Source: Ciceribacter thiooxidans (GTDB taxonomy: Bacteria; Pseudomonadota; Alphaproteobacteria; Rhizobiales; Rhizobiaceae). Taken from it: a stretch of 64,000 nucleotides of DNA. The notes beneath the pieces are model-generated. The model did no database searches and was not told the origin of the DNA. It saw only the letters and a program-made list of their open reading frames with translations. Of the stretch, positions 31,512 through 46,251 are shown piece after piece. The translations under genes and the position numbers were made by a program. How positions within the stretch are numbered: the stretch's first letter is position 1; each line of letters begins with the position of its first letter. The stretch spans positions 3,517,001-3,581,000 of the forward strand of contig NZ_CP059896.1 in NCBI RefSeq assembly GCF_014126615.1. Reading direction: 5' to 3'.

Positions 31512-32546
31512 CTATTTTTCTGCGTTCTTTGGCTTTATCAGGCCTCGATTGACGAGCAGTTCTGCGATCTGCACCGCGTTGAGTGCTGCGCCCTTGCGGA
31601 GATTGTCGGACACGACCCACATGTTGAGGCCATTCTCGACCGTCGCGTCCTCGCGAATACGGGAGATATAAGTCGCATCTTCGCCGGCACACTCGACCGG
31701 CGTGACGTAACCGCCGTTCTCGTGCTTGTCGACAACGAGGCAGCCGGGGGCTTCGCGAAGGATGTCGCGGGCCTGATCGGCCGTGATTTCGTTCTCGAAC
31801 TCGATGTTCACCGACTCCGAATGTCCGATGAACACGGGGACGCGGACCGCGGTGCAAGTGACCTTGATCGCGGGATCAAGCATCTTCTTGGTTTCGGCGA
31901 GAACCTTCCATTCTTCCTTGGTGTAGCCGTCTTCCATGAAAACGTCGATGTGCGGAATGACGTTGAAGGCAATGCGCTTCGTGAATTTCTTCGCTTCGAT
32001 CGGATCGGCGACGAAAACGGCGCGGGTCTGGCTGAAGAGTTCGTCCATTCCCTCCTTGCCGGCGCCCGATACCGACTGGTAGGTGGATACGACCACTCGC
32101 TTTATCTTTGCCGCGTCGTGAAGTGGCTTCAGGGCGACCACCAGCTGGGCGGTCGAGCAGTTCGGATTCGCAATGATGTTACGCTTCTTGAAATCGACAA
32201 CGGCGTCCGGGTTTACTTCCGGTACAATCAGCGGAACATCGGCGTCGTAGCGCCATGCAGACGAGTTGTCGATGACAACGCAGCCCTGGGCTCCGATCTT
32301 CGGCGACCATTTCTGCGAAATCGTCCCGCCTGCCGACATGAGGCAGATATCCGTGTCGGAGAAATCGTAGTTCTCGAGGTTCTGTACCTTCAGCGTCTTA
32401 TCGCCAAAGGATACCTCCGTGCCCTGCGAGCGGGCCGATGCGAGTGCAACAACCTCGTCCGCCGGAAATCCGCGCTCAGCGAGAATGCCGAGCATTTCTC
32501 GCCCCACATTGCCGGTGGCACCTACAACTGCAATCTTGAAACCCAT
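31512..32546 (-). CDS. asd: aspartate-semialdehyde dehydrogenase
   Basis: NADPH-dependent enzyme making aspartate semialdehyde, the branch point to lysine/DAP, threonine, methionine and isoleucine. The 344-residue product starts MGFKIAVVGATGNVGREM (nucleotide-binding motif), has the catalytic cysteine in ANPNCSTAQLVVALKPLHD, the SGAGKEGMDEL segment and a C-terminal GHSESVNIEFE. An in-frame extension of 153 codons upstream is rejected because it runs through a promoter, a leader peptide and hairpins. AGGA lies 5 nt before ATG 32546. The long 5' leader (about 245 nt) and its Thr/Lys-rich small ORF suggest attenuation by pathway end products. Confidence 0.97.
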   Translation of the reverse strand: MGFKIAVVGATGNVGREMLGILAERGFPADEVVALASARSQGTEVSFGDKTLKVQNLENYDFSDTDICLMSAGGTISQKWSPKIGAQGCVVIDNSSAWRYDADVPLIVPEVNPDAVVDFKKRNIIANPNCSTAQLVVALKPLHDAAKIKRVVVSTYQSVSGAGKEGMDELFSQTRAVFVADPIEAKKFTKRIAFNVIPHIDVFMEDGYTKEEWKVLAETKKMLDPAIKVTCTAVRVPVFIGHSESVNIEFENEITADQARDILREAPGCLVVDKHENGGYVTPVECAGEDATYISRIREDATVENGLNMWVVSDNLRKGAALNAVQIAELLVNRGLIKPKNAEK

Positions 32547-32641
32547 GTTTCCTGCTCTCTTTCTTTCTCTCCACGACTGGTGAGGGGAAACATGCGGCAA
32601 TCGCCTTGTTTCCGTGTCCCCGGCCTTGCCGGGGAGAGAGC
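32544..32641 (-). promoter_or_regulatory. asd mRNA leader with competing stems that can hide the start codon
   Basis: On the asd strand: (a) TCCCCGGC (32635-32628) pairs with GCCGGGGA (32624-32617), 8 bp with a 3-nt loop; (b) GGAAACA (32613-32607) pairs with TGTTTCC (32592-32586); (c) CATGTTTCC (32594-32586) is a perfect 9-nt complement of GGAAACATG (32552-32544), which contains part of the Shine-Dalgarno and the whole asd ATG; (d) GCTCTCT (32641-32635) complements AGAGAGC (32560-32554). Stems b and c are mutually exclusive. No T-run follows stem a. Confidence 0.55.
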
Positions 32642-32655
32642 GGAGGCCAGAGACG

Positions 32656-32775
32656 TCAGACGGTTTTCGTCGTCGTTTTGGCCTTGGTTGCGGATGAACG
32701 GGAGGCAAATGCACTCTGCCCGGCCATTTGGGCCAGGTCGGACGCCGCAAGAATTTGCAGACTGTGACGGTGCAT
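32656..32775 (-). CDS. 39-residue candidate leader peptide of asd, Thr/Lys-rich C-terminus
   Basis: Short ORF beginning ATG 32775, preceded by AAGGGA 7 nt upstream and by a good promoter about 25 nt upstream, and ending in TGA at 32656. It starts MHRHSLQILAASDLAQMAGQ and ends ATKAKTTTKTV: five Thr and three Lys codons in the last ten. Threonine and lysine are end products of the pathway that Asd feeds, as expected of an attenuation leader peptide in the manner of thrL. A GC hairpin begins 21 nt after the stop and the asd start is 110 nt downstream. I do not recognise it as a known family; its function is inferred from position, promoter, RBS and codon content. Confidence 0.6.
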   Translation of the reverse strand: MHRHSLQILAASDLAQMAGQSAFASRSSATKAKTTTKTV

Positions 32776-32799
32776 GAGTGAATCCCTTTTCCGGCCGAG

Positions 32800-32828
32800 C
32801 TATTAAGGCGTTTTTTGGCGGAGTCAAG
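32800..32828 (-). promoter_or_regulatory. sigma70-type promoter of the asd leader
   Basis: CTTGAC (32828-32823), a 17-nt spacer, then TAATAG (32805-32800) on the minus strand. This fits the alphaproteobacterial housekeeping pattern CTTGAC-N17-CTATAT well. Transcription would begin near 32793, giving about 18 nt before the leader-peptide ATG. Confidence 0.65.
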
Positions 32829-33112
32829 TGGAAGAGCAAGACCTTTGCGATAAGACGACCATCGGACGCCGAACATGCAAACTTGTGGCTCGGTCCGGGA
32901 AGCCTGTGTGTCATCGGCATAATCTTCCTTCGGGAAACGAAGGACAGGACATCCACACATAAGCGTTTTTTGTCTAGGATGAGTTAGCCTGTTCAACGAA
33001 GGCACGGTGAAGAACTGCCTGGCCCCTTCCTTGTCTGCCCTAAGACCGATCTTGCGGCACGGTGATGTTTGTGAAAGATGGGGTATTGCTTCCCCTTTCC
33101 GGCGTTCCAGTC
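32829..33112. other. intergenic region between asd promoter and acetyltransferase gene
   Basis: No convincing gene was found. Small ORFs here (for example 32778-32987 on the plus strand) overlap the asd promoter and lack ribosome binding sites or recognisable motifs. The stretch must contain the promoter of the acetyltransferase gene at 33113, but I cannot point to clear -35/-10 boxes. Confidence 0.5.
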
Positions 33113-33670
33113 ATGTCTTTCATTCTGCGTGAAACCGAGTCGACGGATCTCTCATCGATAGCTGCGATCTATGCCGACGCTGTGCTCACTGGCACCGCCA
33201 GCTACGAACTTGTTCCGCCGACAGCGGAGGAAATGGCCTCGCGCTTCGCCGCGATAACCGGGCAGGGATACCCGCATATCGCCGCCACCGATCAGGTGGG
33301 CACGGTTCTCGGATACGCGTATGCGTCCGCGTTCCGCACCCGGCCCGCATACCGGTGGCTCGTCGAGGATTCGATCTATCTGGCGCCGGAAGCTCAAGGC
33401 CGGGGGATCGGCAAAGCGTTGTTGAGAGAACTGATCGGGCGCTGCACGGCACTCGGCTTCCGACAAATGGTCGCTGTCATTGGCGGTGCGAGTCCCGCCT
33501 CTGTTCGCCTCCATGCCGTGTGCGGTTTCCAAATGACAGGCACACTGATCGGGACAGGCTTCAAGCACGGTCGGTGGCTCGACACCGTTCTCATGCAACT
33601 GCCTCTTGGTGAAGGCAATGCAACGGCGCCGGACGAGATGTCTTACCCGGGATCTCTGTTTTCAGGCTAG
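33113..33670 (+). CDS. GNAT N-acetyltransferase, phosphinothricin/methionine sulfoximine type
   Basis: Acetyl-CoA-dependent acyltransferase of 185 residues. The sequence LRETESTDLSSIAAIYADAVLTGTASYE, the RPAYRWLVEDSIYL segment and the acetyl-CoA loop APEAQGRGIGKALL are characteristic of the Pat/Bar-like subgroup that acetylates phosphinothricin or methionine sulfoximine. The natural substrate here is not certain. ATG 33113 is used; an in-frame ATG at 33062 adds 17 residues that do not look like the family. It is convergent with the DUF2794 gene, with one base between the stops. Confidence 0.85.
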   Translation: MSFILRETESTDLSSIAAIYADAVLTGTASYELVPPTAEEMASRFAAITGQGYPHIAATDQVGTVLGYAYASAFRTRPAYRWLVEDSIYLAPEAQGRGIGKALLRELIGRCTALGFRQMVAVIGGASPASVRLHAVCGFQMTGTLIGTGFKHGRWLDTVLMQLPLGEGNATAPDEMSYPGSLFSG

Positions 33671-46135: not shown

Positions 46136-46251
46136 AAATCTGCGACGAGATTGAGACTCCGAGCCGCCGACCGGGACCCGTAAAGGTATAAAGAGATCCC
46201 GGAGGTCAACATCCGACAGCGCGTTGCGCTCTCGGGTGCTTTTTGGTTTTT
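46136..46251 (+). ncRNA. candidate small RNA or attenuated ffh leader
   Basis: The dapF-ffh intergenic region (45938-46325, 388 nt) has no credible protein gene. It contains the promoter-like boxes above and, 75-115 nt downstream, a terminator-like hairpin: CCGA-C-AGCGC (46213-46222) against GCGCT-C-TCGG (46226-46235), one mismatch, then GTGC and T-runs at 46240-46244 and 46247-46251. Between them GACC/GGGA (about 46169-46176) can fold with TCCC...GGTC (46197-46207). A roughly 115-nt RNA or a terminator before ffh are both possible. It lacks the GGAAG tetraloop signature of SRP RNA. Confidence 0.35.

Follow-up and report, generated by a model that had tools for sequence, protein, structure and literature searches.

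Aspartate-semialdehyde dehydrogenase (Asd) supplies lysine (Lys), diaminopimelate, threonine (Thr), methionine (Met) and isoleucine (Ile). In Escherichia coli, thrABC is controlled by the leader thrL, which carries codons for Thr and Ile and has an intrinsic terminator at its end. In this work, we analyzed a short open reading frame (ORF) located in front of asd in a stretch of 64,000 nucleotides (nt) of Ciceribacter thiooxidans (contig NZ_CP059896.1, positions 3,517,001 to 3,581,000), hereafter called the window. Like thrL, this asd leader encodes a peptide that includes codons for aspartate-pathway end products and has predicted alternative hairpins, but it differs from thrL in its codons (Thr and Lys), in its target (asd) and in having no terminator in the window. 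Other described systems to which it can be compared are (i) the SEP5 peptide of Sinorhizobium meliloti, which in 2023 was reported to be translated, was called a possible leader peptide and was described as conserved only in Sinorhizobium (PMC10117765), (ii) trpL/rnTrpL of S. meliloti, a leader-peptide attenuator in a related bacterium, which differs from the asd leader in being a Trp attenuator with a 14-residue peptide and a leaderless ORF (PMC10117765), and (iii) the cys operons of Actinobacteria, which are preceded by candidate leader peptides without terminators, with Rho weakly suggested; they share with the asd leader a run of regulatory codons close to the stop and the lack of an intrinsic terminator, but the codons are for Cys (PMC1262725).

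The ORF (minus strand, 32775-32656; 39 codons plus TGA) translates to MHRHSLQILAASDLAQMAGQSAFASRSSATKAKTTTKTV. As the initial annotation had stated, its final ten sense codons comprise five Thr and three Lys, and the sensor codons of this Thr/Lys tail, ATKAKTTTKTV, occupy 32659-32691. The gene behind the leader is a true asd (minus strand, 31512-32546), whose product exceeds the cut-offs of the NCBIfam models NF011456 and TIGR01296; the gap between leader stop and asd start is 109 nt and not the 110 nt given before. We consider, with a probability of roughly 0.85, that this ORF is a ribosome-sensing leader that controls asd.

The conservation of the tail was analyzed in 80 Asd loci, the top-ranking ones among 591 confirmed stretches from an Asd protein scan and hence biased to near kin, from genera that include Rhizobium, Sinorhizobium, Agrobacterium, Ciceribacter, Shinella, Neorhizobium, Martelella, Brucella, Mesorhizobium, Hoeflea, Roseibium and Pseudovibrio. 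The window and all 80 loci possess an ORF with a Thr/Lys-rich tail ending 77-165 nt upstream of asd. Counted by one rule, Thr and Lys make up 7-11 of the final 14 codons in 74/81 loci and 6 in 7/81; these seven are Agrobacterium-type loci, whose tail, IRITAKTTIKTV, aligns with the remaining ones. The reverse-strand control reached a maximum of 4 of 14 codons, so far below the tail score that chance is excluded for the Thr/Lys tail. Thr accounts for 45% and Lys for 25% of the final twelve residues (81 loci, 972 residues), compared with 5.9% Thr and 4.7% Lys in the long ORFs of the window; these twelve residues further include Ala (84), Val (75), Ser (42), Ile (39) and Met (12), with Ala and Val at fixed positions in most tails; Ile and Met are likewise made from aspartate semialdehyde. 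The N-terminal part of the leader varies between genera and conservation is confined to the tail: what is kept near the end of the ORF is a cluster of codons for end products of the pathway. A leader start could be assigned in 79/81 loci (66 ATG, 7 GTG and 6 TTG; L056 and L099 are unassigned), and a word resembling a Shine-Dalgarno (SD) sequence stands ahead of it in 74/79, under a rule that favours starts having such a word. The tail Lys codons of these loci are AAA in 205/247 cases, a codon that accounts for 13% of the 313 Lys codons in the long ORFs of the window, where AAG is preferred; the rarer codon would sharpen sensing, yet RNA pairing may dictate the letters.

Some loci of this set deserve separate mention. 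In the Agrobacterium-type loci L045, L056, L067, L068, L070, L073 and L076, Ile codons in the tail replace Thr of other tails, hinting at Ile sensing, and in most Agrobacterium-type loci the likely leader start is a TTG located 39 codons ahead of the stop. The record of L033 is titled 'MAG: Arenimonas sp.', yet its Asd is 95% identical to that of the window and its leader is of the Rhizobiaceae type; it is probably a mislabelled or mixed bin.

To cover the order (Rhizobiales) and the class (Alphaproteobacteria), Asd was searched in 120 and 144 genomes, of which 119 and 132 matched, respectively. The wider sample of 80 upstream stretches, 50 in the order (46 families represented once, and 4 additional loci) and 30 from as many families outside it, was picked by hand, mostly among the stronger Asd matches. 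With a cut-off of at least 7 Thr/Lys in the final 14 codons, fixed after the scores were known, a Thr/Lys-tailed ORF was found in 24/50 loci of the order (21/46 families) and in 3/30 loci outside it within the same class. The other 53 loci hold none that ends in the 260 nt upstream of asd, and the reverse-strand control gave at most 6 of 14 (79 loci giving a value). Over the 108 leader-bearing loci of both sets, the mean number of Thr and Lys per 12 codons is 8.3 in frame 0, a frame picked because it is rich, whereas the two remaining frames average 2.2 and 0.2. In the 27 tails of the wider sample, Thr is encoded 95 times by ACC, 55 times by ACG, 12 times by ACA and 7 times by ACT, and its retention under varied codons indicates that the amino acid is conserved, not the DNA.

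These data bear on the idea that the conserved stretch is a structured RNA in which the ORF is incidental. Within Rhizobiaceae-type loci, the tail DNA is indeed near-invariant and pairs in a hairpin (1:2, described below), as a non-coding element would. This explanation is nevertheless highly improbable, given that (i) across families Thr is kept in one frame with differing codons in the 27 loci just mentioned, (ii) over the 27 codons ahead of the tail, 61/61 loci have an open frame 0, compared with 45 for frame 1 and 21 for frame 2, and (iii) Ribo-seq shows that the S. meliloti counterpart, SEP5, is translated (PMC10117765).

The tail of the Sinorhizobium loci, SKTTAKTTTKTV, shows the six and three of SEP5, and we therefore regard the two as one element; our loci do not include S. 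meliloti. SEP5 was proposed as a leader peptide, as the asd leader is here, but its account is limited to Sinorhizobium and, in its available text, comes with no RNA structure or mechanism, whereas the tail described here spans the order and beyond (PMC10117765). The initial annotation knew of no asd leader peptide described in rhizobia; this has to be qualified, as that report suggests one in S. meliloti, although limited to Sinorhizobium. In the open-licence literature, as far as its available text extends, an asd leader in these bacteria appears only in this brief mention (PMC10117765), and none was found in the corresponding portions of PMC1273637, PMC2965389, PMC4117421, PMC12218461 and PMC10454058. 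Within that literature the idea itself is thus partly in print, and what is new is its breadth, the restriction of conservation to the tail and the RNA architecture. The initial observation is confirmed, the leader peptide ahead of asd being real and widely conserved. It widens the published Sinorhizobium-only view of the peptide and, as roughly every second family sampled in the order has such a leader, offers a directly testable rule for how these bacteria apportion a shared step between two competing end products.

The RNA of the window contains, around and behind the tail, several strands with alternative partners, all on the minus strand. Hairpin 1:2, which forms around the Thr/Lys codons, has as its 5' arm segment 1, GGCC within the tail codons (32680-32683). 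Segment 2 (CU1), GUCUCUGGCC (32645-32654), begins one base past the stop codon and has either segment 1 or segment 3 as its partner. The pyrimidine strand CU2, GCUCUCUCCCCGGC (32628-32641), whose first 13 of 14 bases are unchanged in 49 aligned rows, pairs with segment 3 by its 3' half and with GA2 by its 5' half. Segment 3 (GA1), GGCCGGGGAC (32616-32625), can bind either segment 2 or CU2, and is followed by a variable hairpin, GGAAAC...GUUUCC (32586-32613), with no U run behind it. Finally, the purine strand GA2, AGAGAGC (32554-32560), lies 7 nt upstream of the asd start; its partner is GCUCUCU of CU2, and this pairing closes the asd start region.

Pairs were counted over 60 distinct Rhizobiaceae-type sequences (61 loci, window included, minus one identical row). 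A first alignment, A1 (49 of 61 rows), split GGCC between columns; the counts were made on anchored strings and on alignment A2 (30 rows), with L085, whose segments 2 and 3 carry an additional base, registered by hand and L082 lacking an anchor for hairpin 1:2. The 2:3 helix is paired in 595/600 cells, compared with 183-356 when slid by 1-3 positions, helix 3:4 (segment 3 with CU2) in 420/420, CU2:GA2 in 419/420 and the outer part of hairpin 1:2 in 289/295. Similar figures were obtained with A2, where 99.0% of cells are paired for 2:3 (30-60% after sliding) and 97.7% for hairpins 1:2 and 3:4. The pair changes affect one side only (for example G-C to G-U), some of them preserving both alternative pairings together, and the pattern is one of conservation, not covariation. 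With 53 leaderless asd loci and an assumed stop position as control, the mean z of the 2:3 duplex was -1.50 in the 27 leader loci of the wider sample and -1.35 in 19 near-relative representatives, versus -0.19 in the control, and that of CU2:GA2 was -1.05 in these 46 leader loci versus +0.05. Single-locus values below -1.64 were obtained for 2:3 in 19/46 and for CU2:GA2 in 12/46 leader loci (5/53 and 4/53 in the controls). An automatic count of five segments on full transcripts was dropped because the hairpin finder picked differing hairpins per locus.

In most Rhizobiaceae-type loci among those listed, folding of the nascent RNA up to segment 3 gave 1:2 and 3:4 in the absence of a ribosome, whereas a stall on the Thr codons led to 2:3 and a ribosome at the stop codon to 3:4, the behaviour of an attenuator. 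Exceptions of this type were L051 with an upstream stall and, partially, L067, L070, L073 and L076 with a downstream stall; in L032, L043 and L044, also Rhizobiaceae-type, 2:3 forms even without a ribosome. The score of this three-state switch beat 40/40 shuffles in 5/5 Rhizobiaceae-type representatives and in L158, L168 and L188, and it was reached by at most 2 of 40 shuffles in 13/45 loci. A plausible course of events would be as follows. Translation of the leader peptide would sense charged tRNA-Thr and tRNA-Lys and, in some lineages, Ile or Met codons too. Under shortage of Thr or Lys, the ribosome would stall on the tail codons, break hairpin 1:2 and leave segment 2 free; in the computed nascent RNA of Rhizobiaceae-type loci, free segment 2 is predicted to pair with segment 3 so that CU2 is looped out. 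CU2 would then be kept, kinetically, off the purine strand next to the start of asd, allowing translation of asd. With both amino acids sufficient, the ribosome would reach the stop and cover segment 2, or depart and let 1:2 reform, upon which segment 3 would pair with CU2 and CU2 would close the asd start region.

The initial annotation had proposed attenuation as in thrL. Its sensing part, the reading of Thr and Lys codons by the ribosome, is well supported by the conserved tail, the alternative pairings close to these codons and the translation of SEP5. The likeness to thrL is only partial: in the window, a scan of the minus strand (32000-33400) found no intrinsic terminator, either between leader and gene, as in thrL, or elsewhere in that interval; terminator-like sites between leader and asd occur in 7/108 leader-bearing loci (L095, L098, L100, L104, L109, L133 and L188). 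The lack of a terminator in the window and the conserved helix at the asd start favour asd translation as the output, and we give even odds to the model in which the output acts through the switch of segments, CU2 and GA2. In terms of class, the element is best filed under leader-peptide attenuation in the broad sense, not under terminator attenuators of the thrL type.

The same Thr/Lys sensor could instead act by premature transcription termination (Rho-dependent or at a weak hairpin), as in thrL or trpL, with 2:3 as the antiterminator. The nascent-RNA switch fits this possibility equally well, the folding of the full-length leader does not favour translation, and the terminators or hairpins of some lineages, detailed below, point in its direction; we still regard it as unlikely, as our scan detected no terminator-like site in 101/108 leader-bearing loci, window included, and the conserved CU2:GA2 helix sits at the asd start.

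Several results weigh against a translational switch: (i) no two-sided pair changes were found within Rhizobiaceae-type loci; (ii) in L084, L091, L092 and L094, 2:3 is present without a ribosome as well; (iii) in L103, L105 and L110, stalling yields hardly any 2:3; (iv) 32/45 loci failed the switch test, including most of those outside the Rhizobiaceae-type group; (v) when the full leader was folded at equilibrium in the 61 Rhizobiaceae-type loci, the mean unpaired fraction of the 25 nt upstream of asd was 0.44 with the ribosome stalled, 0.59 with the ribosome at the stop and 0.47 with no ribosome; (vi) from stop to stalled state, the openness of the asd start rose by more than 0.05 in 0/61 of these loci and fell by more than 0.05 in 44/61; (vii) in the window alone, the asd start is unpaired to 0.45-0.47 in every ribosome state; and (viii) the asd SD in the window is weak. 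The equilibrium difference is trivial in part, as an upstream ribosome frees more RNA to pair, but still lends no support to opening. Full-leader equilibrium folding thus failed as support for translational switching and points the opposite way: the helix that would sequester the SD is conserved, but at equilibrium it does not open upon stalling, and a translational switch would therefore have to be kinetic. On account of this count, we lowered our estimate for translation from somewhat better than even to even, lowered slightly that for the broadest proposal made below, and raised slightly those for transcription termination and for the coupling considered next.

In full-length folding, the asd start is most open with the ribosome at the stop. 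This would suit an upstream ORF whose role is to tune asd translation or couple it to its own, without any sensing of Thr or Lys, the ribosome at the leader stop loosening the asd start. Another such role would be that of a trans-acting peptide, of the kind reported for peTrpL; tagged SEP5 was detected on Western blot (PMC10117765). Such roles are improbable, since conservation is restricted to the tail adjacent to the switch while the rest of the peptide is free to vary, and since the composition of the tail is specifically Thr and Lys.

Terminators of possible relevance were observed in certain lineages. The Brucella loci L098, L104 and L109 contain GCGGGTTTTT, a GC-rich hairpin followed by TTTTT, about 50-30 nt upstream of asd, which is a possible intrinsic terminator and is not found in Rhizobiaceae-type loci. 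Outside the order, L188 carries a strong terminator, GGCCGCACCAGATGCGGCC followed by a T-rich stretch, about 110-80 nt upstream of asd. It overlaps the strands of the switch: its 5' arm is segment 3, complementary to segment 2 just past the leader stop. L188 resembles a classical attenuator and may represent this sensor in a transcriptional form. It is tempting to speculate, with somewhat less than even confidence, that all these loci derive from an ancient alphaproteobacterial switch at the branch of the aspartate pathway, whose single leader would read two to four aspartate-derived amino acids and control asd by means of two crossing helices during RNA synthesis, and which some lineages (the Brucella loci and one family outside the order) would have rewired to a terminator. 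The loci also offer a natural series in which the sensor is constant and the output may shift between translation and transcription.

Regarding the remaining features of the locus, the promoter proposed in the initial annotation is present on the minus strand, with CTTGAC (32828-32823), a spacer of 17 nt and TAATAG (32805-32800), as is the ribosome-binding site AAGGGA of the leader ORF (32788-32783), which has SD-like words as counterparts in relatives. The layout is that of a short translatable ORF placed between a promoter and a biosynthetic gene of the same strand. TTGAC stands 20-60 nt upstream of the leader-start place in 61/61 Rhizobiaceae-type loci, window counted, and TA, with spacing identical to that of the window, in 58/61, a conservation that supports the promoter. 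A generic sigma-70 scan of the window did not detect this promoter because it needs T at the sixth base of the -10 element, where TAATAG has G.

Regarding database and genome searches, the Rfam family names in question are Thr leader, lysine riboswitch and asd motif. At gathering scores, Rfam 15 gave no match at the asd leader in a search of the whole window, and on 32500-32900 it gave two unrelated matches only, both under gathering scores. A protein family search with three leaders returned nothing above cut-off, and one Thr/Lys codon pattern was found once in the genome of the window. Covariance model R1, at E ≤ 0.01, matched 101/151 genomes of the family, some weakly and all counted regardless of asd downstream; the other 50/151 gave no match. 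The divergent neighbour of the asd leader (plus strand, 33062-33670) encodes an acetyltransferase like the ArsN1/phosphinothricin N-acetyltransferases, with scores under the NCBIfam cut-offs. Elsewhere in the window, at 46195-46246 on the plus strand, lies the single Rfam match at gathering scores, the ffh small RNA (sRNA; RF01793, 63.8 bits).
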